Shown here: positions 236 to 22,976 of the stretch, piece after piece
Layout: each line of letters begins with the position of its first letter
Numbering within the stretch: the stretch's first letter is position 1
From: an uncultured Roseobacter sp.
GTDB taxonomy: Bacteria; Pseudomonadota; Alphaproteobacteria; Rhodobacterales; Rhodobacteraceae
Direction: 5' to 3'
DNA: 64,000 nucleotides
Assembly: GCA_947488305.1 (NCBI GenBank)
Contig: CANKZM010000005.1
Span: 434,001-498,000 of the forward strand
Notes under the pieces: model-generated
Seen by the model: the letters and a program-made list of their open reading frames with translations, nothing else
The model's database searches: none
Told to the model about the DNA's origin: nothing
Program-made: the position numbers and the translations under genes

Positions 236-469
236 ATGGCAACAATGAACGTATCCCTTCCTGACCCGATGAAATCCTGGGTCGAAGCGCAGGCCAGAGA
301 TGGGCGTTACAGCAATGTCAGTGATTATATGCGGGACCTGATCCGCAGGGAACAGTCGCGCCAGCAAGCCATCGATGAAGTGCAGGCGCTGGTTGATGAA
401 GGTTTGAACAGCGGTGCACCGCAGCCTTTCGATATGGCCGGTTTTGTTCGGAAAAAGACCGGGGCGTGA
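236..469 (+). CDS. parD: ParD-like antitoxin (type II toxin-antitoxin)
   Basis: A 77-residue protein with the N-terminal ribbon-helix-helix pattern of ParD/CopG antitoxins (N-V-S-L-P-D strand, then Y-x-N-V-S-D-Y-M-R-D-L-I-R helix) and a charged tail ending in F-V-R-K-K that would wrap the toxin. It should bind and neutralise the ParE toxin encoded next and repress its own promoter. A TTGACA hexamer at 201-206 may be the -35 element. The next gene overlaps by four bases, the usual coupling for such pairs. A second ATG at 245 is a possible alternative start. Confidence 0.88.
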   Translation: MATMNVSLPDPMKSWVEAQARDGRYSNVSDYMRDLIRREQSRQQAIDEVQALVDEGLNSGAPQPFDMAGFVRKKTGA

Positions 470-768
470 CCCGACAGATCCTGTTTCGACCCCGGGCCGT
501 CACAGATCTTGACGACATCTGGGATTACACAACCGAGACGTGGTCGCAGGCGCAAGCCGTATCTTATTTTTCCGGACTTGATGCGGCCCTTGGGTTATTG
601 GCCGAATTTCCGGAAATGGCCCGCGAGCGGTCGGAATTTACACCCGCAGTACGCATTCACCGATACCGGCAACATCTTATCATCTACATGGCCGATGAAG
701 AGAAGCTTGATGTTCTGCGCATTGTCCATGGGCGGGCCAATTGGGCAGTCCTTTTTTCAGACGGCTGA
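466..768 (+). CDS. parE: ParE/RelE-superfamily toxin
   Basis: A 100-residue basic protein starting at GTG 466 inside the parD stop region (GTGA overlap). It has the ParE signature: L-F-R-P-R-A-V-T-D-L near the start, a D-I-W-D-Y helix, and a C-terminal R-I-H-R-Y-R-Q-H-L-I-I-Y strand followed by L-D-V-L-R-I-V-H-G-R. Known ParE toxins poison DNA gyrase, while RelE relatives cleave mRNA; the sequence alone does not decide between these. The pair sits at the left border of a plus-strand block inserted among minus-strand genes, so it may act as a stabiliser of that block. Confidence 0.88.
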   Translation: MTRQILFRPRAVTDLDDIWDYTTETWSQAQAVSYFSGLDAALGLLAEFPEMARERSEFTPAVRIHRYRQHLIIYMADEEKLDVLRIVHGRANWAVLFSDG

Positions 769-992
769 AGGTCTTCACCCGACTTAGACATAAGGGAATC
801 ATCCAGACTTCACCTGCTGGTTGAAGGCGGGTTGGACGACTTTGCGTTCCGATCGGGCGGAAAGCTTCGGCAAGGAATTGCCCAATTGGCATCGTGGCTT
901 GCCTCTTTCACAGGGCCCTGACTTCGCAGAAACCCCAATTTCTGCTATGTTAGGTGCACTCTCTCTGCCCGACCTCAATTAAGGAGACTGCC

Positions 993-1436
993 ATGGGCGT
1001 AGATATCCCTGACGAATTTGACATTGATCTGAACCTCAGTGGCGGCACCACTTTAGACGGAGATATGTCTCTGGATACCGAGCTGCGCATACGCGAATTG
1101 CCAACCATTGAGCTGCGTGTCCTCGAACTCCCTGAAATCAAGATTGGCGTCACCGAGCTGCCCAAAGTGCAGCTGGGGGTTGATCCGATCGACTTTTCGC
1201 TCAGGGTCAAGGAAATCCCGGCGATCCGGGCGCATCTACCCGCGAACTTCAAGGTCGGGCTGTCCCTGCTGGGCAATGAACTGCTTTGCATCAACCTGTG
1301 TGGCGAGGCGCAGGTGATCACCGAAGATTACAAGCCTAATCCCTGCGAGATTTGCGGCCCCGTTGGGAACGTGAAGAACGCCCGTGAGATCCCAGGTAAT
1401 GTGAACCGGATCGAACTCGTCGAAGACGATGGCTGA
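993..1436 (+). CDS. Decapeptide-repeat protein, first gene of the isoprenoid cluster
   Basis: 147 residues, not recognised as a known family. I chose ATG 993 because AAGGAG lies just upstream; a longer frame opens at 954. Residues 31-79 consist of five near-tandem units of nine or ten residues with consensus [L/I]-x-V-x-E-L-P-x-[I/V]-x (units at 31-40, 41-50, 51-60, 61-69, 70-79), suggesting a beta-rich fibre or solenoid. The C-terminal third has two cysteine pairs (C-I-N-L-C and C-E-I-C), possibly a metal or disulfide site. There is no signal peptide or membrane segment. The next gene starts inside its last codons (8-base overlap), so it is co-translated with the cluster. Confidence 0.8.
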   Translation: MGVDIPDEFDIDLNLSGGTTLDGDMSLDTELRIRELPTIELRVLELPEIKIGVTELPKVQLGVDPIDFSLRVKEIPAIRAHLPANFKVGLSLLGNELLCINLCGEAQVITEDYKPNPCEICGPVGNVKNAREIPGNVNRIELVEDDG

Positions 1437-2139
1437 TCTCGAGGAAGGCATAAAGCTGAGCAAGGGGCAGGGCATTGCCCCCTTCCAGGTCGCGCGGTCC
1501 CAATCGGGGGTGCTGAAGTTGGGCGGGGCACTGAAAAAGCACTTTGGCGGCGAGATCAAAGCAAGGCTCGTCCCCCGCAAAGGCCAGACACGAATTGCAA
1601 CGCGGATCAGTAAGCTGGCCCCACCGGGCACGCATAAGGCCGTGTTAGTCACTGATGAGGGCGAATACCCCGTTGTGGTAGATATCCCGGTCAAAGAAAA
1701 ACTGCGGCTGGCGCCCTCTTCCATAAGTCTCACCGGGCGACCGGGAGAGCGGGTAAGCGTGCCATTGACGGTCAGGAACCTTGGGAACGTGGCCTTGCCG
1801 GTGCCTTCTGGAGGCATAGGGGGGTTGTTTGCTTCTGACGGATTGGCGGGCGCGTTTTCGGCGGCCTATGGATCGGATGCGGAGGCCCCGCTGGACGTAT
1901 TCGGAGAGTTCATTCTGGGGCTGCGCCGATCCTACCTTGGGCTGATGCGGCTGCGGCTAATCTCCAAGGTCAAAACCGATCTTGGGGTCGCGGAATCCCG
2001 TGAGGTGGTTGGGGAGTTTACCGTGCCGGAGCCCATGAACAAAGACACGCAACTTGGGCTGGGTCGTCGGTTTCATACGACGATCACCATGCCGCATCTG
2101 CGCTGCGTCACCCGTCTCACCCTGAGCGGGCCGACATAG
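1429..2139 (+). CDS. Hypothetical protein with Ig-like beta domain
   Basis: 236 residues, no recognised family and no export signal. Residues about 40-125 look like a beta-sandwich: alternating hydrophobic strands, then G-R-P-G-E-R-V-S-V-P-L-T-V-R-N-L-G-N, the kind of strand seen in NEW3/Ig-like domains. A glycine-rich linker (about 125-145) leads to a predicted helix around 155-175 and a C-terminal beta region. The start overlaps the preceding gene by 8 bases and a downstream gene follows after 15 bases. Related in style to the products of 2155, 2800 and 5224, so these may be diverged members of one structural family. Function unknown. Confidence 0.78.
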   Translation: MADLEEGIKLSKGQGIAPFQVARSQSGVLKLGGALKKHFGGEIKARLVPRKGQTRIATRISKLAPPGTHKAVLVTDEGEYPVVVDIPVKEKLRLAPSSISLTGRPGERVSVPLTVRNLGNVALPVPSGGIGGLFASDGLAGAFSAAYGSDAEAPLDVFGEFILGLRRSYLGLMRLRLISKVKTDLGVAESREVVGEFTVPEPMNKDTQLGLGRRFHTTITMPHLRCVTRLTLSGPT

Positions 2140-2154
2140 AAAAGGGGACAGCTG

Positions 2155-2796
2155 ATGAAGAAAAGCAAAAGCAGCACGCAGGAAATGCGCGATAATCTGG
2201 ACAGCATGTCGGAGATGCTGTCCCGGCAGATGGATTTGACGGGAGAGATCGTGGACAGTCTGGCGGGAACGGCCCAGCGGTTTCTGTCTTCCCTGACGGC
2301 CGGTCAGTCCTCCAACTGTTGTGATATTCCCGAACCTTGTTGGATGCCCAAGGACCTTGGCGAATACCACTGTAAACTTTGTGCGGGCAGTACGGGGATC
2401 ATGGAAATTACCGTTACCAATACCGACTTCCGCCCCCGCAATTTCACGGTTGCTGCCGCCGGGCCCGATGCGGCGCGGGTCAAGCTGACGCCGAATAGTT
2501 TCACGCTTGGAGCCAAGGAACGTCTGACCGTGCCCGCCGAGTTCGATACGCGGCTGGATGACAAGGTAAATTGTGCCTCCTTCGAAGCACTGATCTGGGT
2601 GGTGGGTTGCAACAGCCATTTTCTGCGCTGGACGCTGGACGTGGGCAAATCCGAGCGCGCCTGTTGCCACCATGTGGAGGTCTTTGACCAGCCCGACTAT
2701 CAGCATCACTGGTACGATCACTTCTATTGCGTTCGTCCCTGTTATGGCCGCTCTGGGCGCGGTGGAAATGTTGCAGCCGGTAAGGACACAGGCTGA
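2155..2796 (+). CDS. Cysteine-rich protein: phasin-like helix plus Ig-like domain
   Basis: 213 residues with a good ribosome binding site (AGGGGACAG). The first 45 residues form a polar amphipathic helix (M-R-D-N-L-D-S-M-S-E-M-L pattern), reminiscent of phasins and other granule-surface proteins. Residues about 80-170 look like an Ig-like sandwich (M-E-I-T-V-T-N-T-D). Eleven cysteines are spread through the protein (N-C-C, H-C-K-L-C, A-C-C-H-H, F-Y-C-V-R-P-C), and the last 50 residues mix Cys and His densely, which suggests a metal site. No signal peptide. Function unknown; the context points to a structural or metal-binding partner of the isoprenoid enzymes. Confidence 0.78.
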   Translation: MKKSKSSTQEMRDNLDSMSEMLSRQMDLTGEIVDSLAGTAQRFLSSLTAGQSSNCCDIPEPCWMPKDLGEYHCKLCAGSTGIMEITVTNTDFRPRNFTVAAAGPDAARVKLTPNSFTLGAKERLTVPAEFDTRLDDKVNCASFEALIWVVGCNSHFLRWTLDVGKSERACCHHVEVFDQPDYQHHWYDHFYCVRPCYGRSGRGGNVAAGKDTG

Positions 2797-2799
2797 CTC

Positions 2800-3312
2800 A
2801 TGTCGAATTCACCAATGAAGGAAATGTTCAATCAGGCCATGCGCCTGAACATCAAATATTACAGCGGCCTGTTTGAGGTAACCAAGGATTACCTTGGCGC
2901 TCTGCGTGATCTGGCGGGGCAGGGCTTGCAGGTCGACACGAAGGCCGCCGCCGCCACGCCGAAGTCCCAGGCGACTGTCCCGGCCATTCAGCCCTTGATC
3001 CTTGCAGCACCTGCTGGTCGCGTTGCGACTGCGCAATTTGCAGTGACCAACAACACTGGCGAAGAGGTCGCGGCGGACCCTGAACTCTCCGAGTCGCTGC
3101 AAAAGGCAGGCATCAAGGCAGAACCGTCCGGACGGATGGTGGCCAAAGGAGAGAATGTGATCTTTACGCTCACAGGGAAACCGACCGGCAAAATGGACTT
3201 TGAACGGGACATTATTGGGTCGGTCAGCGTGCGCCCTTTCGGTGACCGTGAGATCCCGGTTGTGCTGCGGCGTCTGCCGCCCGCCTCCAAGCAGAAGGCG
3301 AAAACCTCATGA
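2800..3312 (+). CDS. Phasin-like helix plus Ig-like domain protein
   Basis: 170 residues. Residues 1-45 form an amphipathic helix (M-F-N-Q-A-M-R-L-N-I-K-Y-Y, then Y-L-G-A-L-R-D-L) similar in character to phasin N-termini. An alanine/proline linker is followed by a beta-sandwich (A-Q-F-A-V-T-N-N-T-G) and a basic tail. It starts three bases after the previous stop and overlaps the methyltransferase start by four bases, so expression is tightly coupled. I know no precise family. Inference: a surface or scaffold protein for a particle or lipid body made by this cluster. Confidence 0.78.
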   Translation: MSNSPMKEMFNQAMRLNIKYYSGLFEVTKDYLGALRDLAGQGLQVDTKAAAATPKSQATVPAIQPLILAAPAGRVATAQFAVTNNTGEEVAADPELSESLQKAGIKAEPSGRMVAKGENVIFTLTGKPTGKMDFERDIIGSVSVRPFGDREIPVVLRRLPPASKQKAKTS

Positions 3313-4148
3313 GCGCGCCAGGTGGGATCATGGCCGAAGGCGTGCTGGTGCAGGCCATGCATCTATATTCCGCGCTGGTGATGAAACCCTATGAGCAAGG
3401 CCGTAACGCGGGACTGATTGAGCGCACGACGCTGGGCACATTGCCGAAACCGCTCGACCGAAGTGGCCTCGGCCCTCATTTCTCAAGAGAATATCCACGA
3501 CCTGTCCTGCTGGGTCGGGCGACGGAAAATGATGCCTTGGTCTCTGAGTTTGACCGGATGGGAGAGATATACGACGCTTATGTGCGTCCGTTCTCGACAC
3601 CGATCATGAATGCAGCCGTCGAAGAGCTTTCTGCCTGGATCAAACCTGATTTCCGCCTGCTGGATGCGGGATGCGGGGCCGGGCGTGAGCTTTGCCGCCT
3701 GTCGCAATTGGTACCCGATGGCGAGGCCGTCGGCATTGATCTGGCGGCGGGAATGGTCAATGCGGCCTATGCGGCGGCGCGCGCCAAAGCTTTTGATAAC
3801 ACGGCGTTTTTCCAATCGGATGTGGGTGATTTACCGGAGGTTTTCACCGATGGTTTCGATCTGGTCTACTCCTGCCTTGCCCATCACCATTACCCTGATC
3901 CGCCTGCCGCCACGCGTGAAATTTATCGGTCTTTGCGTCCCGGGGGCTATTACACCGTGATTGACGCGGGGCCAGAATGGTTCGTGAAACGCTCCTCGGG
4001 GCTGGCGCTTTGGGCTGATCCGGGCTGGATCGGATTTCATACTCCTGAGCAGTTTATGGCGCTGTTTGAAGCCGCCGGTTTTGAAAACACCGGCTGGATT
4101 GATCTGGTGCCTGGCTTTGGGATCGCGTGCGCGCAGAAACCGATGTGA
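3309..4148 (+). CDS. Class I SAM-dependent methyltransferase
   Basis: 279 residues. The Rossmann methyltransferase core occupies about residues 105-240: motif I is L-L-D-A-G-C-G-A-G-R-E-L, the acidic end of strand 2 is V-G-I-D-L, motif II region reads F-D-L-V-Y-S-C-L-A-H-H-H, and motif III is L-R-P-G-G-Y-Y-T-V. This is the UbiE/Coq5-like or methyltransferase-11/25 group. About 100 residues precede the core and are not conserved in the family as far as I can tell. Between two structural genes and directly overlapping the polyprenyl synthase gene, it most likely methylates an isoprenoid product or precursor; the substrate is not visible from sequence. Confidence 0.88.
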   Translation: MSAPGGIMAEGVLVQAMHLYSALVMKPYEQGRNAGLIERTTLGTLPKPLDRSGLGPHFSREYPRPVLLGRATENDALVSEFDRMGEIYDAYVRPFSTPIMNAAVEELSAWIKPDFRLLDAGCGAGRELCRLSQLVPDGEAVGIDLAAGMVNAAYAAARAKAFDNTAFFQSDVGDLPEVFTDGFDLVYSCLAHHHYPDPPAATREIYRSLRPGGYYTVIDAGPEWFVKRSSGLALWADPGWIGFHTPEQFMALFEAAGFENTGWIDLVPGFGIACAQKPM

Positions 4149-5212
4149 ATGAACTGGGGTATGACCGGGCGCTCATAGAGCAAGCCCTCAACACCGCACG
4201 GACCCGGACCGAAAAGGCGATGACACGGTTCTTCGATGCGCGACGCGAAACGGGGATGGATGTGCTTTACGACCAGATCAGCGATTACCCGTTTCGGGTA
4301 GGCAAGGGGTTGCGCCCCGCGCTGGTCTATGCGGCCTGTCAGGGGATGGGCGGTACCGAAGCACAGGCGGAAAACACCGCCACCGCCATCGAGCTTTTTC
4401 ACAACGGCGCGCTGGTGCATGACGATATCGAGGATATCTCGGATTTCCGCCGTGGGGACGAGACGCTGTTCCGTCGCCACGGGGTGCCGATTGCGATCAA
4501 CACCGGGGATGCAACCTTTGTCTTTTGCCTCTCGCTGCTGCTGGACAATGTGGACCAACTGGGTGTCCGCAAGGCGATGCGCATCCTCAAGGATTTCGAA
4601 CGGCTCAGCCGCGAATCCGTTGAGGGGCAGGCGATTGAGCTCGATTGGATTCACAATGCGCGATTTGATCTGGAGAGCGAAGACTACCTGCGCATGGCCT
4701 ACAAAAAAACCTGCTGGTACACGATGATCGCGCCTTTGCGGCTAGGGGTTGTGGCGGGGTCGGGGCCATCGATGGTGGCCGATCTGGAAGAGGCGCTGAT
4801 TGATGTTATGGAGCTGGGATATCTCGCCGGCATCGGCTTTCAGGTTCAGGACGATCTGCTGAATCTCACGGCGGATGAGGTGCTTTACGGCAAGGAAATC
4901 AGCGGGGATCTTTATGAGGGCAAACGAACGGTCATGCTGTTGCATTTTTTGCGCACCGCGCCGAAACGGCAAAGGGCGCGGGCCATCAAATTGCTCACAT
5001 TGCCGCGCGCAGAGAAAGAACCGGACGAGGTGCGCTGGCTGCTGCAGGCCATGCATGAAGCAGGCTCCATCGACCACGGGCGGGAGCTGGCTCAGGATTT
5101 CATCAAGCGCGCGTTGAAATTCGAAGCAGAGGGGCTCGCCTTCATGCCCGAAACGCGACACCGGCAATTTCTGCGCGAAGTGCTCAAATACGTCATTGCA
5201 AGACTGAAGTAA
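4145..5212 (+). CDS. Polyprenyl (probably geranylgeranyl or longer) diphosphate synthase
   Basis: A trans-isoprenyl diphosphate synthase of about 355 residues. The first aspartate-rich motif is H-D-D-I-E-D (Asp 93, 94, 97) followed by R-R-G; the second is Q-D-D-L-L-N (Asp 236, 237, Asn 240), with Asn in place of the usual last Asp. The residues before the first motif are small (G-A-L-V), not the bulky aromatics of farnesyl synthases, so a C20 or longer product is likely. I chose GTG 4145, which overlaps the methyltransferase stop as GTGA; GTG 4127 is also possible. It is the central biosynthetic enzyme of the cluster and is separate from any photosynthesis gene cluster. Confidence 0.88.
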   Translation: MNELGYDRALIEQALNTARTRTEKAMTRFFDARRETGMDVLYDQISDYPFRVGKGLRPALVYAACQGMGGTEAQAENTATAIELFHNGALVHDDIEDISDFRRGDETLFRRHGVPIAINTGDATFVFCLSLLLDNVDQLGVRKAMRILKDFERLSRESVEGQAIELDWIHNARFDLESEDYLRMAYKKTCWYTMIAPLRLGVVAGSGPSMVADLEEALIDVMELGYLAGIGFQVQDDLLNLTADEVLYGKEISGDLYEGKRTVMLLHFLRTAPKRQRARAIKLLTLPRAEKEPDEVRWLLQAMHEAGSIDHGRELAQDFIKRALKFEAEGLAFMPETRHRQFLREVLKYVIARLK

Positions 5213-5223
5213 GAGGGACCGAC

Positions 5224-5832
5224 ATGCCACATGACCACGATCACGGGAACACGCCGTCCAGCCCGTTCGAAGAGCTGATGAAACTGCAAAGTGCGTTTCA
5301 GCAGAGCCTTAGCCAGGCGACGATGCAATATCTCCGTCAGCTGCAAGGCATCGTCGGGCCAGTCACGCCCGGCACCGTCGTGCAGCAGGTCGAGGGCAGT
5401 ACCATTGATCTGAAGCTGAAACCTGGGGGGCAGGCCAAAGCGACGGTCAATGTGGAAAACCGCCAGCGGGTGCACTCGATGGTGACGCCAATGATCACGC
5501 CTTTGGTGTCCGACACCGGCGCCACATGGTTCGCGCAGGCGGGCTTCACGCCACCGACCGCTCTCTTGGCCACCGATGAGGTCTTGGAGTTCGCACTGGT
5601 GCTGGAGGGGCCAAAGGATATGCCGTTGGGTGTCTATCGCGGTGCCGTGCTGATTTATGGGTGCAGCGAAGGTGTCGTGCCGCTGGAGGTTACGGTGGCG
5701 AAATCCAGCCGCGCGGCTCCGGCGACCAAGGCAAAACAGGCGGCGGCGCGTGCCAGCACCAAGACCAAAGCAGCCCCCAAGAAAGCGCCTGCCAAGAAGG
5801 CGGCCACCCGAAAACCCAGCAAAGCAACCTGA
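5224..5832 (+). CDS. Phasin-like/Ig-like protein with histone-like Lys-Ala tail
   Basis: 202 residues in three parts: an N-terminal amphipathic helix (about 15-45, F-E-E-L-M-K-L-Q-S-A-F-Q-Q-S), a central Ig-like beta domain (about 55-155, K-A-T-V-N-V-E-N), and a C-terminal tail of about 45 residues made almost only of Lys, Ala, Pro, Thr and Arg, with K-K-A-P-A-K-K-A-like repeats. That tail resembles histone H1-like bacterial proteins and the DNA-binding tail of PhaF-type phasins, which tether storage granules to the nucleoid. No signal peptide. Starts 11 bases after the polyprenyl synthase. Inference: tethers a particle or lipid body to DNA. Confidence 0.8.
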   Translation: MPHDHDHGNTPSSPFEELMKLQSAFQQSLSQATMQYLRQLQGIVGPVTPGTVVQQVEGSTIDLKLKPGGQAKATVNVENRQRVHSMVTPMITPLVSDTGATWFAQAGFTPPTALLATDEVLEFALVLEGPKDMPLGVYRGAVLIYGCSEGVVPLEVTVAKSSRAAPATKAKQAAARASTKTKAAPKKAPAKKAATRKPSKAT

Positions 5833-5843
5833 GGAGACGGCCC

Positions 5844-6407
5844 ATGCCAAATAGCGCAAACATTCGCCTCATTGATCCGCCCGAAGATGCGGGCCGCACG
5901 ACTGCCAGTCTCTTTTCCTCCCTGGCCAGCAGGTTGATCACCTTGCATTACACATCCGGCGTCAGCGTCATCGGCTCTACTCTCGCGGGGCTGGCCGAAG
6001 CAGGCAGGGAAATCTCAAAAACGGCTGAAGGCGCGCGGATCCGCCGGGCATTAGAGGCCAGTGCAGTCAAGGACAACGGAGAGCTTCTGTGGAGTGCGTT
6101 ACGCGTAACAGGCTGGACGGAAGGGATGCCCGCCGCGCCGGTTCTGGATCATATTCGGAACGATCTGGCGCTCTTACTGGCGGAGGATCTGGCAGAGACC
6201 ATCGACAACGTCCCGGCGCCGCTGGAAAACAAGGTGCATCGTAGCAAAACCGTGCCTGCAGCGATCACCTTCATCGACACGCTGATGGGCTTGTGGATTC
6301 ACTCGCGCGAAATCGTGCAATCGGTTGAGGCTCTGGCCCGAAGCGCCCCGGAGCGGGACACTGTTGAACCCGGGGATGCGGTCCATCGCGGTCCGATCCT
6401 GCGGTGA
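5844..6407 (+). CDS. Alpha-helical hypothetical protein of the isoprenoid cluster
   Basis: 187 residues. The ATG at 5844 is preceded by GAGGAG; a longer open frame exists upstream but overlaps the previous gene extensively. The protein is predicted almost wholly helical, with an amphipathic region at about 22-75 (S-L-A-S-R-L-I-T-L-H-Y, then A-G-R-E-I-S-K-T-A-E) and a second helical region at about 140-170. It has no beta domain, unlike its neighbours, and no signal peptide. No family recognised. The stop is overlapped by the GTG start of the CrtC-like gene (GTGA), so translation is coupled. Confidence 0.75.
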   Translation: MPNSANIRLIDPPEDAGRTTASLFSSLASRLITLHYTSGVSVIGSTLAGLAEAGREISKTAEGARIRRALEASAVKDNGELLWSALRVTGWTEGMPAAPVLDHIRNDLALLLAEDLAETIDNVPAPLENKVHRSKTVPAAITFIDTLMGLWIHSREIVQSVEALARSAPERDTVEPGDAVHRGPILR

Positions 6408-7402
6408 CAGCTTTTGATACGCTCCGGCCGCCGGTTTTGAGCGATCCAACGGCGGCAGCGTACAAGGACTGGCTTCACCTCAACGTGTTCCTGCCGGATC
6501 ACGGACGCGTTGTTCTGATCAACACCTCCTTGCACGGCCCCCCGTGGGACAATCGTGCGCGCGCGGTTGGCGTGGCATTGGCGAGTGCGCGCGATGGCGA
6601 TTGGACCGGTGGGATAGAGATCGCGTCATTTGCAAATAGCAAGGTCGACACACAGGCAATATTCCTCAGCACGATTTCCTTATCGGTGGCGCGCGATGGC
6701 AAGACGTTGCATGCAAAAGTCTCACGGCCGGACGATGGATTTGAGGCGGATCTCGTGGCGCGTCCTGTTCTGTCAACGGCCAGTCTGGATCTGACAGCAC
6801 AGTTTGGCAGCGGCTGGATCGGGTGGAGCGCCATCCCGGTCTTGTCGGTGTCGGGTACTTTGAAACTGGACGGCGAAGAGATTTCGCTGAAATCAGCGCG
6901 AGGTTACCACGACCATAATTGGGGCCGGTGGTTCTGGGGTGAGGATGTGGCTTGGGAATGGGGTGCATGGGTGCTGGATCAGGACATCACCGTCGTTGCC
7001 GCACGCGGTACGGACAAGACGCATTTCACCCGCCAGCCGCCGCATGTTTTTCTGGTGCAGGGGAGCCGCGTTTACAGTTTTTTGTCTGACCAGATCAGCT
7101 TGACATATGATGCAGCGCCAACCCGCGCTGCGCGGCGTATACCGGGCGCCTTGGCGGCGATACATCCCGACCGGCGCGCACCGGATTTGCCGCGCAACAT
7201 TATACTGCGGGCCTCTAGCCAGCACGCGCAATTTGAACTGCAGTTCAAGGCTGACACCGCCGCACAGCTATTGCTGTCCGATCCCATGCGCCCGGGCTCG
7301 GGTTTCATAAATGAGCTGAGCGGGCGTTGTGCCTTGGTGGCGCAATTGGATCACTCAATGATCAAGGCCGAGGGAACGGGGGTGTTCGAATATGTCGAGT
7401 GA
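6404..7402 (+). CDS. CrtC/AttH-like lipocalin-fold protein (possible carotenoid 1,2-hydratase relative)
   Basis: 332 residues, GTG start overlapping the previous stop. The hallmark is a central G-Y-H-D-H-N-W-G stretch (about 165-172) followed by W-x-W-G-A-W, which is typical of the hydroxyneurosporene synthase (CrtC)/AttH family. Family members add water to the terminal double bond of acyclic carotenoids or terpenoids, and others have unknown roles. With a polyprenyl synthase and a methyltransferase in the same operon, a terpenoid hydratase is a reasonable guess. No signal peptide. Similarity is at superfamily level, so an authentic CrtC function is not proven. Confidence 0.72.
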   Translation: MTAFDTLRPPVLSDPTAAAYKDWLHLNVFLPDHGRVVLINTSLHGPPWDNRARAVGVALASARDGDWTGGIEIASFANSKVDTQAIFLSTISLSVARDGKTLHAKVSRPDDGFEADLVARPVLSTASLDLTAQFGSGWIGWSAIPVLSVSGTLKLDGEEISLKSARGYHDHNWGRWFWGEDVAWEWGAWVLDQDITVVAARGTDKTHFTRQPPHVFLVQGSRVYSFLSDQISLTYDAAPTRAARRIPGALAAIHPDRRAPDLPRNIILRASSQHAQFELQFKADTAAQLLLSDPMRPGSGFINELSGRCALVAQLDHSMIKAEGTGVFEYVE

Positions 7403-7910
7403 TCCGCGCCACCTGCGTGACTGGATTGTTGCGCTCTTTGCTGCGTTGGAGGAAGGCGAGCCCCATCGGGCGGACGCTATCCGGAAACTGGCCGGTGCTC
7501 AGTTGTCCCGTATGGTTCTGGACGCTGATCGTGTGACGGTCCGGTTCGAAGCGGGTGATTTGCGGGTCAGACGGCTGCCGGAAAATGCTGCGCTGAAAAC
7601 CCCCAACGGGACCACTGACAGGCAGACCGTGCGGGATTTGCTGCAAGGCTACATGGAGATTTCTGAAGCGATTTCACAGGACAAAATCCGGCTGAGGGGC
7701 ACCGCGGATGAGGTCATGGCAATCTGCGCGATCATTGAAATCCTCGTGGACGCGAGCACCCGCATTCCGGAACTGCAAAGGCTGGCGGCGGCTTTTCTGG
7801 AAACCGCTGGAAAGAGCACGGGGCGGTTTGCGCGGCGTGAAAGACGTGCGCAGGAACGCAAGTTGGTATTGAAGGAGCGGGACTTTCTCAGGCGAGAAAA
7901 CCTGCTGTAA
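7392..7910 (+). CDS. SCP2-like (sterol carrier-type) lipid-binding protein, last gene of the isoprenoid cluster
   Basis: 172 residues, ATG overlapping the end of the CrtC-like gene by 11 bases. Residues about 30-130 have the layout of an SCP2 domain: alternating strands (M-V-L-D-A-D-R-V-T-V-R-F-E, then L-R-V-R-R-L), a helix, and the I-R-L-R-G-T-A-D-E-V strand-turn-helix near the end. The last 35 residues are very basic (R-R-E-R-R-A-Q-E-R-K). SCP2 domains bind sterols, quinone precursors or other hydrophobic ligands, which would suit handling a polyprenyl product. The assignment is by pattern and moderately sure. Confidence 0.6.
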   Translation: MSSDPRHLRDWIVALFAALEEGEPHRADAIRKLAGAQLSRMVLDADRVTVRFEAGDLRVRRLPENAALKTPNGTTDRQTVRDLLQGYMEISEAISQDKIRLRGTADEVMAICAIIEILVDASTRIPELQRLAAAFLETAGKSTGRFARRERRAQERKLVLKERDFLRRENLL

Positions 7911-7931
7911 AGTCTCGCACCCGGAAAGCGG

Positions 7932-7949
7932 ACATAATGAGAATTATGT
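7932..7949. terminator. AT-rich hairpin between convergent operons
   Basis: ACATAAT and ATTATGT form a 7-base stem with a 4-base loop between the end of the ten-gene cluster and the end of the minus-strand SoxY-like gene. It is weak, and only short T-runs flank it, so a bidirectional terminator is a tentative reading. Confidence 0.3.
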
Positions 7950-7987
7950 TAATAAAACACCTTTGAAGTTGGTTGGCTGGTCAGACT

Positions 7988-8410
7988 TCAGGCACCGCAT
8001 CCGCCGACAACAACCTCGATATGCCTAGTGACGATGCGCAAGGTGCCGTCCTCCATTTCGGCCAGCGCCGTCACGTTTTGCGTTCTGGCAAGCCGGATGC
8101 GCGTTGAGACCTTGCGTGCGCCGCTGAACGGTCCAAAGCAGAAATGCGCAACGGTTGGTGCGGGGTTGTCATCCGCGAGCAATTTGATGGATCTGGCACC
8201 GGGTGCGCTGATTTCCACAAACACGCGGTGGCCGTCATCTGCCACATCCGGCAAGGAGAGAATGATGCCACCCTCACGCGGCTCAGCGCCAGCGGTCAGG
8301 GCAGCGATTGCCTCACCATAAGGTGATGCAAAGGCAGGCAAGCTGACACATCCTGCAGCCACGATGGTGCCTGAGCCCAAAGCGAGTGTTTTGCGTCGTG
8401 TCAGCTTCAT
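7988..8410 (-). CDS. SoxY-like sulfur-carrier protein (solo)
   Basis: About 140 residues from ATG 8410, which follows a GGAGAA ribosome binding site; the longer frame from 8467 lacks one. A twin-arginine-like leader (T-R-R-K-T-L-A-L-G) and hydrophobic stretch end near A-F-A. The mature domain has the SoxY fold pattern and ends with V-G-G-C-G-A, close to the G-G-C-G-G tail whose cysteine carries sulfur intermediates in the Sox system. No soxZ, soxA, soxX or soxB is adjacent; the fused SoxYZ at 15884 is a second carrier-like protein in this region. Its role in methanol/PQQ loci is not established. Confidence 0.75.
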   Translation of the reverse strand: MKLTRRKTLALGSGTIVAAGCVSLPAFASPYGEAIAALTAGAEPREGGIILSLPDVADDGHRVFVEISAPGARSIKLLADDNPAPTVAHFCFGPFSGARKVSTRIRLARTQNVTALAEMEDGTLRIVTRHIEVVVGGCGA

Positions 8411-8536
8411 GGGTTCTCCGACGTTCGGGAAACGAGTGACCGGGCGTTGCCTGATCTTGCCCCGCACCTCCCCTGAAGCTGACCATATTTCCCCGGCTTT
8501 TCACAGAAAATCCGTGGTCGCATGACGGGAAGTTGA

Positions 8537-9136: not shown

Positions 9137-9882
9137 ACGCGACGCCAGCGCGAAACGCGCCGCTCCCATGGTTGCAGAAGCGCCCATTCGACAACCAGCA
9201 TGACACAGATGAAGGACAGGGCGTAGACCAGCACCATCGCGACGTCAAAAAGCTGGAAGTACAGGTGTATCTGGAAGCCGATGCCCGAGGAACGTCCGAG
9301 GAATTCAACCACGAGCACGATTTTCCAGATGACGGCTACACCCCCGCGCGCCGCCGCCGCGATGAAGGGGGCAAGTTGTGGCAGCAGGACATGGCGCAGC
9401 CGCGACCATCCGCTCATCCTGTAAATGCGGGCCAAGGCATCGAGGTTCGGGTCCAGTGCGCGCGCGCCCTCACGGACGACAAGGGCCACGTTCGGGATCT
9501 TGTTGAGGGTGACGGCGATGATCGCGGCTGTTTCGCTTAACCCGATCCACAAATAACACAGGACGATCAGAACAAGCGCAGGCAGGTTGAGGAAGATGAC
9601 GAGCCAGGGGTCCAGCCAACGATTGACGTTTTCTGATCGACCCATGACAAACCCGATTACAGTGCCGAGCGTCATCGCCAGCGCAAAGGCCCAGAGCACG
9701 CGAAGCAGCGTCGCGCCCAGGTGGTGTAATAGCTCGCCAGACGCAAGTTCAGTGCCAAACAAGGGCAAAAGGTCAAAGGGCGTGGGCAGGATTTGGGGAT
9801 CATCGGTCAGAAATGCCGCCGCCAGCCACAGCAGCAGCAGACCACAAATGGACAGAAATGGCGTGAGACGTTCGACCGTCAT
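9133..9882 (-). CDS. ABC transporter permease (SsuC/TauC type)
   Basis: 249 residues with about six membrane segments, starting with a hydrophobic segment at residues 7-25. The cytoplasmic coupling region (A-L-D-P-N-L-D-A-L-A-R-I-Y-R-M-S-G-W-S-R followed by H-V-L-L-P-Q-L-A-P) is the EAA-type loop of binding-protein-dependent permeases. It pairs with the ATPase gene that overlaps its stop and with the binding protein 12 bases upstream. Confidence 0.88.
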   Translation of the reverse strand: MTVERLTPFLSICGLLLLWLAAAFLTDDPQILPTPFDLLPLFGTELASGELLHHLGATLLRVLWAFALAMTLGTVIGFVMGRSENVNRWLDPWLVIFLNLPALVLIVLCYLWIGLSETAAIIAVTLNKIPNVALVVREGARALDPNLDALARIYRMSGWSRLRHVLLPQLAPFIAAAARGGVAVIWKIVLVVEFLGRSSGIGFQIHLYFQLFDVAMVLVYALSFICVMLVVEWALLQPWERRVSRWRRV

Positions 9883-9894
9883 CGCCTTTGCACG

Positions 9895-10857
9895 CTATTC
9901 CACTTGGACGAACAGGCCGGCCGGCACCGTTGTGGCATCGCCCACCAATTCAGCGCCCCCGAGCTCTGCCATCAGACCCAGCATTTTTCCCGCACTTTCT
10001 GCGCTCACGGGCCCGCGTTCGGGAATGCCCGTAATCCAGTCTTTCTTGAGCTGCTCAAACTGCGCATCCGTTTTTGCGTTCATGCGGGGCCTAATGGCGT
10101 CCCATGCTGCATCTGAGCTTGCCAGCAAGTCCTTTGCGTCGCGGCTGGCATTGTAAAAAGCCTGCGCCAGACCGGGCGTTGCGTCGAAAAAGCTCTCTTT
10201 GCCGAAATACCCCAATAGTGGCGTGTCGGGATCAAGACCCAAAGCCGTTGCCGCCTCGTCTACAGAAATCAGTTCTTTCATGCCGGAGGCTTTCATCTTG
10301 GCCAGGAAGTGCCAGAAGTTGATCGCTCCCGCATAGTCGCCGCCCAAGGCGGATTTGAAAATTAGCGGGGGTGCACCATAGACCTGTTCCGTTCCGGCTT
10401 TGAGGTCCATGCCGTGTTTCTGTTTTGCATAGGCCCGCAGGATCAGCCAGGATTTGTCGAGCGGTCCTCCCGCGATGCCGATTTTGCCGCCTTCGATGTC
10501 CTTCACTGATTTGGCTGCGCTGTCACCTGGTATCACCAGGCCGCCAACGGCTTTGGAATAGGGGAAAAAGACGTATCCCTTGCCCGCCGCGCGTTGGCGA
10601 GCGACCCAGATCCAGTCTGCAACGGCCATGTCTGCAGCGTCGCCTTCCACGGCAACACGTGAGCCGTTGTTATCCGCAAAGGGCTGCACCTCAAGCTTGA
10701 AGCCGTGTTTCTCGTCGAGGCCGTTTTCAACGATCGTGGCCAGTTCCCAATTCACCGTTCCGATCTTCAGCACGGCAAGACGTACCACGGGCAGGTCGCT
10801 TGCAGAGGCCGATACGCTCATCAGTGACCAGATGATCAGTCCCAGCAAATATCTCAT
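9895..10857 (-). CDS. ABC transporter substrate-binding protein (NMT1/SsuA-like)
   Basis: 320 residues from ATG 10857 (GGAAGGGAAG upstream). A Sec signal peptide (residues 1-20, ending A-S-A-S-A) precedes a type 2 periplasmic-binding fold: V-V-R-L-A-V-L-K-I-G-T-V-N-W-E-L at the start, a ligand-loop region around G-S-R-V-A-V-E-G, and G-K-I-G-I-A-G-G in the second lobe. This fold serves nitrate, taurine, sulfonate and thiamine-precursor transporters. The ligand cannot be read from sequence; position between a PepSY protein and a SoxY-like gene in a methanol locus is its main clue. Confidence 0.85.
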   Translation of the reverse strand: MRYLLGLIIWSLMSVSASASDLPVVRLAVLKIGTVNWELATIVENGLDEKHGFKLEVQPFADNNGSRVAVEGDAADMAVADWIWVARQRAAGKGYVFFPYSKAVGGLVIPGDSAAKSVKDIEGGKIGIAGGPLDKSWLILRAYAKQKHGMDLKAGTEQVYGAPPLIFKSALGGDYAGAINFWHFLAKMKASGMKELISVDEAATALGLDPDTPLLGYFGKESFFDATPGLAQAFYNASRDAKDLLASSDAAWDAIRPRMNAKTDAQFEQLKKDWITGIPERGPVSAESAGKMLGLMAELGGAELVGDATTVPAGLFVQVE

Positions 10858-10889
10858 ATTCTTCCCTTCCTGTGGCACATGACCTGTTG

Positions 10890-11141
10890 TTATTCAGCGC
10901 GGCGGCTGACTTCGTTCAGGTCTTTGTCCAGCTTGATGTCGAATTGATCGCCACCTTTGCAGATCACATCATCCAGATCATAGCCGTCGTCTTCAACTTC
11001 GATGTCATCCGGGTCCATTTGGCATTCGATAGAGGCCAGAAACGCCTCGATCTTGGCGACGGTGTCTGCGTCCAGGTGGCCATCCGCGTGGACTGGCGCA
11101 GCGAATAAAGCGAATGCTGCACAATAAATGAGTTTACGCAT
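10890..11141 (-). CDS. Acidic periplasmic PepSY-type protein (lanpepsy-like candidate)
   Basis: 83 residues from ATG 11141, with a GAAAGG ribosome binding site; ATG 11159 overlaps the upstream stop and is an alternative. A signal peptide (M-R-K-L-I-Y to P-V-H-A) is followed by a short mature domain that is extremely rich in Asp and Glu (D-P-D-D-I-E-V-E-D-D-G-Y-D-L-D-D) and has the PepSY strand pattern ending I-K-L-D-K-D-L-N-E-V. Two cysteines could form a disulfide. Lanpepsy of Methylobacillus is a known lanthanide-binding PepSY protein; an acidic PepSY protein next to xoxF genes suggests a similar role. The metal-binding claim is inference. Confidence 0.72.
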   Translation of the reverse strand: MRKLIYCAAFALFAAPVHADGHLDADTVAKIEAFLASIECQMDPDDIEVEDDGYDLDDVICKGGDQFDIKLDKDLNEVSRRAE

Positions 11142-18681: not shown

Positions 18682-20481
18682 TCAGTCTGGCAGTGCAAAG
18701 ACTGTCAGCTGTCCACCCAATGCGGTATAGTCGCTCAGGGCTGCATAGCCGCCCACAGCACCCAGACCGTCATTCGGGTTGGTCAGACCAGCCGCAAGAC
18801 CGATACCGGCCCAGCCACCAACACCTGACAGGATGCCAATGTACTGCTTGCCCGCGGACTCATAGGTCATCACGTTACCGATGATGCCGGATGGTGTTTT
18901 GAAGCGGTAAAGCTCTTCACCAGTATCGGCACTCACGGCCTTCAGATGGCCTTCAAGTGTGCCGTAGAAGACCACGTCGCCGGCGGTCGCAAGGGCACCG
19001 GACCAGACAGAGAACTTCTCTGGGATGGACCACTTGATTTCGCCATTGATGTTGTCCCAGGCGATGAAGTTACCCATGCCGCCATGGCTGTCAGGCGCAG
19101 GATACATCGACAGGGTCGCACCAACGTAAGGCTGGCCAGCGGTGTAGGACACCCGGAACGGTTCGTAGTCCATGCAGACGTGGTTGGTCGGCACGTAGAA
19201 CATTTCCGTTTTCGGGCTGTAAGCCGCAGGCTGTTGGTCTTTGGTGCCAAGCGCCGCAGGGCAGACGCCCGTGGTGTTGACGTCTTCGCCGTTTTGCGCC
19301 GTGGAGTATTGTGCCACAACCGCCGGACGACCGTAGGTTTCAGACGCCGGGTCCATATCGACACCCGTTGTCCAGTTCACAACCGGGTCGAACTTTTCGG
19401 CAACAAGCAGTTCACCTGATACGCGGTCCAATGTGTAACCCAGACCGTTACGGTCGAAGTGAGTGAGCAACTTACGCTCTTCACCGTCGATCATCTGTTC
19501 GGTCAGGATGTTTTCATTGATCCCATCATAATCCCACTCGTCGTGTGGGGTCATCTGGTAGAACCACTTGGCCACACCGGTGTCGATGTCGCGCGCCATC
19601 AGTGTCATGGACCAACGGTTGTCGCCAGGACGCTGTGCCGGGTTCCATGTGGAGGGGTTGCCTGTGCCGTAGTAGAACAGGTTTTCATCCAGATCCGCCG
19701 AGAACCAGCCCCATGTCGTGCCGCCCCCGATCATCCACTGATCGCCTTCCCAGGTATTGGTGCCTGAGTCTGCGCCCACTGGCTTGCCAAGGTGTGTGGT
19801 GTTTTCCGGATCGGCAAGGATATCGCTGTCAGGGCCCATGGAATAGGCACGCCAGACCAGCTCACCGCTGCTCATGTCATAGGCCGTTGTATGGCCACGG
19901 ACACCGAATTCACCGCCCGAGATACCGACAATGATCTTGTCTTTGACGGGCAGTACGGTCGCTGTGTTTGTCTCGCCAATCGACGGATCACCGTTGACTG
20001 CTGTCCAGACCACGTCACCCGACTTGGCGTCAAGTGCAACGACTGTCGTGTCCGCCTGATGCAGGAAGATCTTGCCGTCCGCATATGCCACACCACGGTT
20101 GACCGTGTCACAGCACATCACCGGAATGACATCCGGGTCCTGCTTTGGCTCGTACTTCCAGATGATCTTGCCTTCATTCTTCAGGTCAAGCGCGTAGACG
20201 ATGTTTGGAAACGGCGTGTGCACATACATCACGTCATCAATGACCAATGGCGAACCTTCGTGGCCACGCAGAACGCCCGTCGAGAACGTCCAGGCAACCT
20301 GCAGATCGCCCACGTTTTCCGCGTTGATCTGGTCAAGCGCAGAATACCGTTGGTTTTTGTAATCACCCGTCTGGATCGCCCACTGTGTGGAATCACCCAT
20401 CTGGGATACGAGATCGTCGTTTGCGGTAGCCATGCCGGCGCAAAGCGCGATCCCGGAGGTCAAAAGCATCAGCTTTTTCAT
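18682..20481 (-). CDS. xoxF: XoxF: lanthanide-dependent PQQ methanol dehydrogenase
   Basis: 599 residues from ATG 20481 (GGGAGG upstream; the frame runs on to 20592 without support). The signal peptide ends about residue 20. It is an eight-bladed quinoprotein: adjacent cysteines Cys123-Cys124 (PQQ disulfide), metal ligands Glu191 and Asn275, and W-D-Y-D at 316-319, where Asp317 is the catalytic base and Asp319 is the extra aspartate that marks lanthanide-dependent enzymes (MxaF has alanine there). It oxidises methanol to formaldehyde or formate in the periplasm and passes electrons to XoxG. No mxaF or mxaI is in the window. Confidence 0.97.
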
Positions 20482-20527
20482 AGTAGTGCCTCCCATAATG
20501 CGGCGGAATTGCCGCGAAAACGGCCTC

Positions 20528-20590
20528 TGGCCCCGCACTGGGCCAAACGCCAGGTCTTTTCCATGCAGGCCGGTTCCTCCACCAGCCTGC
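20528..20590 (-). other. Two hairpins in the gap before xoxF
   Basis: Between the cytochrome c gene and xoxF there are two inverted repeats: TGGCCC/GGGCCA at 20528-20545 with a 6-base loop, and GCAGGC/GCCTGC at 20565-20590. Neither has a T-run, so they look like transcript-processing or leader structures rather than terminators; xoxF may also have its own promoter here. Confidence 0.4.
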
Positions 20591-20604
20591 AAGGAAACCT
20601 CAGA

Positions 20605-21028: not shown

Positions 21029-21859
21029 TCAGTTCAGTCGCTCGGCGTGCCATTCGACATGGTCGCGCGCGAAGGTGTTCACGAAAAAATAGGAGTGGTC
21101 ATAGCCCTCCTGCATGCGCACCTGTCCGGGTTGACGACGACGCGCCATCATGTCGGCGAGCGCTTCGGGCTTGAGCAGGTCGAGGAATTGATCCTCAGCC
21201 CCCTGGTCAACCAACAGATCGCTTTTCCACCCAAATTCTTCCAGCAACAGTGTTGCATCATGTTCAGTCCAGGTGGACTCGTCATCCCCAAGATAGGCGC
21301 TAAGCTGCTTACGGCCCCAGTCGGATTGTGTGGGGTGTGCAATCGGAGCAAAGGCGGACAACGATTCGAACAAATCTGCGTTTCGCAGAGCCAGCGTGAT
21401 CGCGCCATGGCCGCCCATCGAATGTCCGGTGATTCCATGACGATCCTGCAGCGGCAGATTCTCCATGACGATACTGCGCAGCTCATTCACGATGTAATCA
21501 TACATGCGGAAATGTTGCTTCCAGGGGTTGCGCGTCGCGTTCACATAGAAACCTGCTCCCTGCCCCAGATCATAAGCTTCGTCATCACTGACACCAGCGC
21601 CACGCGGCGAGGTATCCGGGAAGATGATTGCCAGCCCCTGACGTGCCGCATGTTCCTGAAAGCCGCCCTTGAACATGGCGTTCTCATGGGTGCAGGTCAG
21701 ACCCGACAGGTACCAAAGCAACGGAACCGGCCCATCTGCGGCCTGCGGCGGCAGGTAGATCGCAAAGGTCATTTCGCATCCGCAGGTGTTCGACGGATGT
21801 TTGAACACCTTCTGGCGTCCTCCGAAACTCCGGTTTTCCGATACCAGCTCCAAGGTCAC
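21029..21859 (-). CDS. fghA: S-formylglutathione hydrolase
   Basis: 276 residues from GTG 21859, with GGAG seven bases upstream overlapping the adhI stop; the frame to 21916 intrudes into adhI. It is an alpha/beta hydrolase of the esterase D family: nucleophile in G-H-S-M-G-G-H-G-A, early Y-L-S-G-L-T-C-T-H-E-N, and the histidine in G-Y-D-H-S-Y-F-F. It hydrolyses S-formylglutathione to formate and glutathione, the step after the dehydrogenase encoded immediately upstream. Length is normal for the family. Confidence 0.95.
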   Translation of the reverse strand: MTLELVSENRSFGGRQKVFKHPSNTCGCEMTFAIYLPPQAADGPVPLLWYLSGLTCTHENAMFKGGFQEHAARQGLAIIFPDTSPRGAGVSDDEAYDLGQGAGFYVNATRNPWKQHFRMYDYIVNELRSIVMENLPLQDRHGITGHSMGGHGAITLALRNADLFESLSAFAPIAHPTQSDWGRKQLSAYLGDDESTWTEHDATLLLEEFGWKSDLLVDQGAEDQFLDLLKPEALADMMARRRQPGQVRMQEGYDHSYFFVNTFARDHVEWHAERLN

Positions 21860-21860
21860 A

Positions 21861-22976
<1,116 letters not shown>

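Follow-up and report, generated by a model that had tools for sequence, protein, structure and literature searches.

A ten-gene cassette around a dedicated polyprenyl diphosphate synthase in Roseobacter and distant bacteria: a candidate system for making and holding an isoprenoid lipid

What does a bacterium make, and where does it keep it, with a polyprenyl diphosphate synthase whose gene stands in a row with six genes for proteins of no assignable family? The question is raised by a 64,000-nucleotide stretch of a contig from an uncultured Roseobacter sp. (CANKZM010000005.1, positions 434,001 to 498,000), here called the window, in which ten plus-strand open reading frames (ORFs), g1 to g10, form what we call the cassette (Table 1). 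A sequence-only reading of this DNA had described an isoprenoid cluster of undescribed make-up, and we found no match to it in the libraries or the open-licence literature searched. Our preferred though tentative answer, drawn from the genes alone, is that the ten genes have spread horizontally as a self-contained unit and that their products synthesize an isoprenoid lipid and hold it at a dedicated cytoplasmic site lined with protein.

Layout, recurrence, and surroundings of the cassette

The earlier reading had placed ten genes on the plus strand, mostly overlapping by 4 to 11 bases and without signal peptides. The ten genes are borne out, whereas the overlap was slightly overstated: five of the nine junctions overlap (by 4, 4, 8, 11, and 22 bases), four are gaps of 3 to 15 bases, and the 22-base overlap between g5 and g6 hinges on the GTG start picked for g6. 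When the window was compared with L005, L008, and L010, three of the six available Roseobacter-type loci, 26 of 30 gene comparisons gave dN/dS ratios of 0.018 to 0.210, with g5, g6, and g8 the most constrained genes. The remaining four (g3 in all three loci and g9 in L010) gave no ratio because silent sites were saturated, with pN at 0.11 to 0.24 and pS at 0.74 to 0.80; for the same reason six of the ten comparisons with the more distant locus L011 gave none. All ten ORFs look coding and are under purifying selection wherever a ratio was obtainable. Chance or an annotation artefact, which we also considered, is excluded by the ten-gene synteny together with purifying selection. As to signal peptides, the earlier claim holds by simple hydropathy: the 19-residue Kyte-Doolittle mean is at most 1.57 in all ten proteins (nearest to the usual mark of 1.6 are g10 at 1.57 and g6 at 1.54), and by this measure all ten look cytosolic, without clear transmembrane or signal segments.

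The cassette was followed over 12 loci: the window; ten loci (L005 to L014) from a scan of genome contigs for g9, in which 10 of 29 pattern matches encode a relative and exact short matches were required, so that distant carriers will have been overlooked; and one locus (L023) found with a g8 profile in an actinobacterial genome, G1087, of the same order as the L014 genome. Presence was called by tblastn with the ten window proteins and then by hidden Markov model (HMM) searches with family profiles. All ten genes stand in the same order in six of six Roseobacter/Ruegeria loci (L005 to L010; 58 to 96% protein identity by tblastn), and the Roseobacter-type carriers include the named strain Roseobacter cerasinus AI77. 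All ten are also present in L011, from a Lysobacterales metagenome-assembled genome (MAG), as g6 to g10 plus a convergent g1 to g5, and in L023, where they lie on one strand in the order g6 to g10, then g1 to g5. The Geodermatophilaceae MAG locus (L012) carries g6 to g9 and g10 by tblastn and g1, g2, and g4 by HMM, g3 being recognized from its place in the locus and its 45% identity to the protein in L014; in the latter, an Egibacteraceae MAG whose contig starts inside g6, tblastn finds g6 to g9 and g10, and HMM searches find g1 to g4. A MAG labelled Bacteroidetes (L013) has only g6 to g10 (g6 to g9 by tblastn, g10 by HMM). A search of the locus stretches, not of the whole genomes, did not find g5 in L012, L013, or L014. 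In a test set beforehand and run, the unassigned genes were asked to co-occur with the synthase, and they do: 9 of the 12 loci have the full set of ten, 2 have nine (L012, and L014 with its cut g6), and 1 has g6 to g10 (L013). By these homology searches, the cassette is conserved across Alphaproteobacteria, Gammaproteobacteria, and Actinomycetota, and its arrangements suggest two movable blocks, g1 to g5 and g6 to g10.

Carriers are sparse in the genomes sampled. No relative of g3 was found in 189 other genomes of the class or in 294 others of the family, in samples that hold mostly one genome per genus and hence understate within-genus clusters of carriers; the single same-genus genome among them was negative. 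The g8 profile found nothing in 397 other genomes of the phylum, whereas in the phylum of the L012 genome it matched 3 of 396 (the L012 genome, G1087, and one weak partial match of 21 bits) and in the order of G1087 it matched 2 of 30, both already among the known carriers. A viral home was considered and dropped, as IMG/VR holds no relative of g3 or g8 (a phage collection was not searched), and so was a plasmid home, as tblastn found no relative in plasmids of g1, g3, or g9, nor of g1, g3, and g4 as they occur in L012.

Upstream of g1, a leader is partly conserved in the seven Roseobacter-type loci. It contains CTTCGC at 922 to 927, followed by the 'AATTTCTG' region, and a ribosome-site-like AGGAG at 982 to 986. 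In an alignment of the DNA upstream of g1, 29 of 143 columns are invariant and cluster in the leader, with invariant bases at 922 to 951, and blastn recovers the leader as conserved pieces of 37 to 86 bases between the flanks. It has no sigma-70-like match and no Rfam match; judged by its conservation, it is likely a shared promoter or operator. No flanking gene is common to all seven loci, either among ORFs of at least 90 amino acids or in a more sensitive comparison. What the flanks do share is limited to ABC-transporter genes in four loci, at differing distances, one weak pair (29% identity, L005 and L008), and a 510-base stretch of 77% identity directly 3' of g10 in L006 and L007. Because the leader is kept while the surroundings differ, we regard the ten genes and the leader as a unit, one that is perhaps self-contained and has perhaps spread horizontally.

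Two observations on the cassette edges stand apart from this. The 510-base stretch (L006 11526 to 12037, L007 7199 to 7710) looks by eye like a CcdA/CcdB-like pair, and toxin-antitoxin genes lie at the edge of the cassette in three of the seven Roseobacter-type loci (3' of g10 in L006 and L007, 5' of g1 in the window). Beside g6 to g10 in L013, positions 2131 to 7721 encode a 1,080-amino-acid fusion of ferritin-like, flavin adenine dinucleotide (FAD) amine-oxidase, and Rieske domains together with a radical S-adenosylmethionine (SAM) protein.

Table 1. The cassette and adjoining features, in coordinates of the window
Feature	Position	Strand	Length (amino acids)	Description
Toxin-antitoxin pair	236-768			ParD/ParE, by Pfam; upstream of g1
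Leader before g1	920-992	+		Partly conserved in seven Roseobacter-type loci
Cassette	993-7910	+		Ten ORFs, g1 to g10
g1	993-1436	+	147	Beta-rich, repeat-like; core 'HLPANF--G-SLLG-EL--I-LCG-A' and 'NPCE'
g2	1429-2139	+	236	Beta-sandwich-like regions
g3	2155-2796	+	213	N-terminal helix, immunoglobulin (Ig)-like core, Cys/His-rich ends
g4	2800-3312	+	170	N-terminal helix and Ig-like domain; apparent paralogue of g7
g5	3309-4148	+	279	SAM-dependent methyltransferase; long N-terminal region before the domain
g6	4127-5212	+	361	trans-Polyprenyl diphosphate synthase; Asp-rich motifs DDIED and DDLLN
g7	5224-5832	+	202	N-terminal amphipathic helix, Ig-like domain, Lys/Ala-rich tail; in the g6 to g10 core
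g8	5844-6407	+	187	Probably helical; among the most conserved
g9	6404-7402	+	332	Remote AttH/CrtC/tocopherol-cyclase relative; invariant 'YHD-NWGRW-WG-D--W-WG'
g10	7392-7910	+	172	SCP2-like (weak); present in all twelve loci
SoxY-domain gene	7988-8467			Convergent, downstream of g10

Enzymes, lipid-handling candidates, and six families without a name

Four of the ten proteins had been given an identity from the letters alone, and two of these identities are firm. The g6 protein matches Pfam polyprenyl_synt at 172.5 bits against a cut-off of 27, and its best match in the PDB is a geranylgeranyl diphosphate synthase (1wmw). Its second Asp-rich motif, DD(L/V)LN, is present in 13 of 13 rows, and its first, DD(I/V)ED, in 10 of 12 full-length rows, the others being DDVQD in L011 and DDIQD in a Kitasatospora sequence (L004). 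Small residues stand directly before the first motif (G-A in Roseobacters), which we take to suggest a product of C20 or longer. The host genome has three further polyprenyl synthases. In a tree of 33 rows (11 cluster members, the partial L014 copy being left out, 20 paralogues from nine genomes, and two plasmid sequences), a branch with support of 95/99 separates the 11 cluster members from the remaining rows, with long branches elsewhere and nothing sampled beyond these rows; nearest to them are the Ruegeria THAF33 and Kitasatospora synthases. On its predicted function and this tree, g6 is a fourth, dedicated polyprenyl synthase that forms one clade across phyla. The g5 methyltransferase is equally firm (Pfam Methyltransf_31, 75.8 bits, residues 112 to 221); it is 90 to 95% identical in Roseobacter-type loci and 64% in L011, and its similarity to PDB entries is mostly confined to the SAM domain.

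The other two identities, a CrtC/AttH-like g9 and an SCP2-like g10, stood only in part. For g9, remote homology is suggested, as its family profile finds AttH (2ich, E = 0.014) and a CrtC domain (7a0q, E = 0.32) in the PDB, and its comparison with the host AttH family by hhalign gives an E value of 3e-4 at a probability of 39%, from a seven-row profile that includes one stray 18-amino-acid fragment. Among 11 g9 members, Pfam lists DUF2804 in 7 and Tocopherol_cycl in 4, but window g9 remains below the cut-off, and PF07143, the CrtC carotenoid hydratase family, has no match at E of 1 or less in any of the 11. The Y168/D170 pair (Y-x-D) is invariant in 11 of 11, and D170 aligns with an Asp of the AttH family; the catalytic residues of CrtC are given as Tyr266 and Asp268 in the part of the source available (PMC4717167), but we could not locate a counterpart in g9 of CrtC's catalytic His-x-Trp pair. 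Hence g9 appears to be a remote relative within the AttH/CrtC/tocopherol-cyclase superfamily, too remote from CrtC for its reaction to be predicted. For g10, weak matches occur in other members (SCP2 in 2 of 11, best E = 0.075; SCP2_2 in 1 of 11, E = 0.02), all sub-threshold, but none in window g10, and its PDB search gave no SCP2 entry; it is possibly SCP2-like. Both proteins thus point weakly to lipid-handling folds.

A carotenoid pathway gene set was also considered. PF07143 genes elsewhere in the carriers, first taken as a phototrophy marker, look AttH-like, and the idea was dropped. Such genes occur away from the cassette in all seven Roseobacter-type carriers (L025 to L031) and in 99 of 198 genomes of the family, the host included; the six that were read (L028 not among them) look AttH-like, mostly with signal-like N termini by eye, rather than like classic carotenoid hydratases.

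The remaining six proteins (g1 to g4, g7, and g8) were said to be unassignable, and none reaches a curated family cut-off in Pfam or NCBIfam. For g1 there is no match in either at E of 1 or less; its homologues occur in L005 to L011 and L023 and, remotely, in L012 (E = 1.4e-5) and L014 (E = 2e-7). Sub-threshold Pfam matches and none in NCBIfam were found for g2, which has homologues in L005 to L012, L014, and L023 and is remotely similar by profile to g4 and g7 (hhalign probabilities of 30 and 37%). In g3, with only weak FixG_C/fn3 matches in Pfam, 14 Cys/His residues are invariant in eight homologues; its 'HHWYDHFYC-RPC' motif persists in L023, takes the form 'LHWYDHFYF-RPC' in L011, and could not be discerned in the more distant versions of L012 and L014. 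The g8 protein is 88 to 96% identical in Roseobacters and 36 to 53% across phyla, and has no match in Pfam or NCBIfam (queried without the first Met) or in the PDB. The profiles of g4 and g7 match each other with an hhalign probability of 96.9% (E = 1.7e-10), and by this comparison the two are paralogues with a helix plus Ig-like architecture.

Three of these proteins (g3, g4, and g7) had been read as beginning with phasin-like amphipathic helices, a claim that is weak overall. In its favor, Phasin_2 matches 7 of 11 g7 members (best E = 0.0068), though these are not independent, as the six nearest members are 76 to 86% identical to window g7, and shuffling of the hydrophobic moment gives p = 0.020 for g7. 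On the other side, window g7 scores 15.9 bits against a Phasin_2 cut-off of 24.9, window g3 and g4 have no phasin match in Pfam, and the shuffle p values are 0.055 for g3 and 0.20 for g4 (0.023 for g8; ten proteins, uncorrected).

What the cassette may make and where it may be kept

The earlier reading had the cluster make a methylated, perhaps hydrated, polyprenyl compound and package it in a protein-coated cytoplasmic body or particle, a view that our results support in part. The reading that we tentatively prefer, an isoprenoid lipid kept in a protein-lined place, would work as follows. The g6 protein would supply a short-to-medium prenyl diphosphate, which g5, where present, would methylate. 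The g9 protein may modify or hold the prenyl chain, as members of its superfamily protonate, hydrate, or cyclize prenyl chains or carry lipids, and SCP2-like g10 and g8 may move or stabilize the prenyl lipid. The helix plus Ig-like proteins g3, g4, and g7, with g1 and g2, would line the surface of accumulating neutral lipid, as phasins do on polyhydroxyalkanoate (PHA) granules. In actinobacteria, the prenyl alcohol may be esterified by an adjacent wax-ester/DGAT synthase (WS/DGAT).

The last step draws on the actinobacterial neighborhoods. In L012, WS/DGAT genes flank the cassette on both sides (829 to 2301 and 9662 to 11005; PF03007, 160 and 151 bits) and are two of the three copies in the genome; in L014, a WS/DGAT domain match at 5980 to 6750, on the opposite strand, begins some 110 bases away from where g1 probably starts, and the gene is one of two in that genome. 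A placement model, made after the result was seen, gives values of 7e-5 for L012 and 0.013 for L014. WS/DGAT genes thus border the cassette in two of five non-Roseobacter loci and are present in 3 of 11 carrier genomes tested (those of L011, L012, and L014); that of L011 has two, one on the cassette contig at about 33 kb from g6. None was noticed among the reading frames of L023, of which three flanking ones were scanned (the G1087 genome was not searched for the family). These neighbors point to a neutral isoprenoid lipid as the product.

In favor of such a lined lipid store, we count the synteny in differing surroundings, the purifying selection, the single g6 clade, the cytosolic hydropathy, the g4-g7 paralogy, the WS/DGAT neighbors, and the weak hints of lipid-handling folds in g9 and g10. 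Several observations weigh against it. WS/DGAT is absent from seven of seven Roseobacter-type genomes and from the L013 genome (G850), so that esterification is not general, and g5 was not found in 3 of the 12 locus stretches. Similarity to phasins stays under the curated cut-off. In the test of helix amphipathicity, g7 alone among the three helix proteins attains p < 0.05, whereas g8, for which no role in a coat is proposed, has p = 0.023. The assignments of g9 and g10 are sub-threshold, g10 finding no SCP2 entry in the PDB. Further, L011 to L014 come from MAGs and may suffer from binning errors, the 'Bacteroidetes' label of L013 above all; gene co-linearity within one contig is independent of binning.

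A bolder and more doubtful form of this reading would make the cassette a complete ten-gene module, moving between phyla, for a new kind of inclusion, an isoprenoid body with a dedicated coat. The coat would then consist of the helix plus Ig-like proteins, the Cys/His-rich protein, and the beta-repeat protein, and the inclusion would be for isoprenoids what the carbonosome is for PHA, its protein families being without recognized relation to encapsulins.

The same proteins might instead assemble the enzymes of a terpenoid pathway on a soluble scaffold (a metabolon), in which Ig-like and helical proteins dock g6, g5, and g9 and g10 passes on the intermediate, with neither storage nor a particle. 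The cytosolic look of all the proteins fits this somewhat unlikely alternative, as do the strong constraint on g5, g6, and g8 and the stretch of L013, where g6 to g10 alone would make a core of enzyme, carriers, and one Ig-like protein. However, five beta-rich or helical non-enzyme proteins would seem to exceed the usual need of a scaffold, and the WS/DGAT neighbors in L012 and L014 hint at a lipid that is stored.

We consider very unlikely a protein-walled compartment analogous to an encapsulin, with g1 to g4 and g7 as a shell around g6. In its favor, g6 scores 151.5 bits on the model for the family-2 encapsulin cargo polyprenyl transferase (NF041169), and a related synthase on the Ruegeria THAF33 megaplasmid, near g6 in the tree, adjoins a real encapsulin gene. 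But the cargo cut-off of 450 lies far above that score, and the best NCBIfam model for g6 is the non-cargo IdsA (170.7 bits, likewise far below its cut-off). None of the ten proteins matches a capsid family in Pfam or NCBIfam, and a search for family-1 encapsulin (PF04454), which did not extend to family-2 shells, was negative in all 12 carrier genomes (MAGs in several cases) and positive in the THAF33 record and 3 of 14 control genomes. Thus g6 was set aside as an encapsulin cargo. We know of no shell fold made of Ig-like domains. Pairwise comparison detects no similarity between g7 and the Ig-like hypothetical protein next to the Ruegeria synthase (E = 0.35), and an Ig protein common to the cassette and the Ruegeria locus was rejected because the similarity is only generic (HMM E = 2.4e-4, with few reading frames searched). 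The Ruegeria locus itself (L003, 8109 to 13481) has an encapsulin (PF04454, 90.7 bits), a DUF3237 protein, an FAD amine-oxidase-like enzyme, and the g6 relative in a row, and a row in Ruegeria AD91A (L063, 4106 to 9481) is annotated alike; a convergent hypothetical adjoins both encapsulin rows and is Ig-like in THAF33. These rows represent a possible isoprenoid-linked encapsulin.

An ordinary terpenoid cluster whose product is a small molecule for secretion, and whose hypothetical genes are there only incidentally, would suit a prenyl synthase, a methyltransferase, and a tailoring-type protein but is very unlikely, given that none of the ten matches a terpene cyclase, P450, or transporter above cut-off and that the supposedly incidental genes accompany the enzymes from phylum to phylum, under purifying selection.

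Within the window, GC content in 1-kb steps is 0.575 to 0.611 across the cassette and 0.544 to 0.591 in adjoining stretches. There is no tRNA in the 64 kb and no Rfam match within 700 to 8100, and a promoter and terminator scan gave matches at chance level only. By eye, from ORF translations, a pyrroloquinoline quinone (PQQ)-dehydrogenase-like gene at 18682 to 20592, with neighboring genes for a c-type cytochrome, a substrate-binding protein, and beta-propellers, adjoins formaldehyde-oxidation-type genes at 21029 to 22976 and resembles a methanol or alcohol oxidation island.

Related systems and significance

PHA granules (carbonosomes) carry cytosolic amphipathic-helix phasins that are encoded beside the enzymes making the hydrophobic store. 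The cassette likewise pairs genes for putative cytosolic amphipathic-helix proteins with those for lipid-making enzymes, but it has a prenyl synthase in place of a PHA synthase, only sub-threshold Phasin_2 matches, and Ig-like domains attached. It shares with the actinobacterial lipid bodies of wax esters and triacylglycerol the WS/DGAT genes that border it in L012 and L014, yet the Roseobacter carriers lack WS/DGAT, and no cassette protein was recognized as a lipid-body protein. With the CrtC/AttH/tocopherol cyclase superfamily, g9 shares the spacing of its invariant Tyr and Asp, which equals that of the CrtC residues in the portion of PMC4717167 available, but it differs in its remoteness, its scores below Pfam cut-offs, and the unplaced His-x-Trp pair. 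Closest in idea, to judge from the part of the source available, are the encapsulin-linked terpenoid systems (PMC8346489), where family 2B encapsulins have a polyprenyl transferase or a terpene cyclase as cargo. There, as in the cassette, a dedicated polyprenyl synthase, sometimes with a C-methyltransferase, is linked to putative compartment proteins; unlike them, the cassette has no capsid-like protein, its carriers yielded no family-1 encapsulin (family 2 not being searched), and its synthase scores below the cargo cut-off.

In the open-licence PMC literature (subscription papers being outside the scope), we found no cluster of such make-up. Nor did any of the libraries consulted hold a match to its conserved set of non-enzyme proteins; the function is one that we propose from sequence. 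Whole-cassette conservation ties to isoprenoid synthesis six protein families that have neither a curated name nor a known fold. With only ten genes, all apparently cytosolic in product, and carriers that include the named strain R. cerasinus AI77, the product and its localization are directly testable. If a storage or sequestration body is indeed what the cassette encodes, the few classes of organelle known in bacteria would gain another, and the ten genes would offer a compact module with which terpenoids could be retained inside cells.

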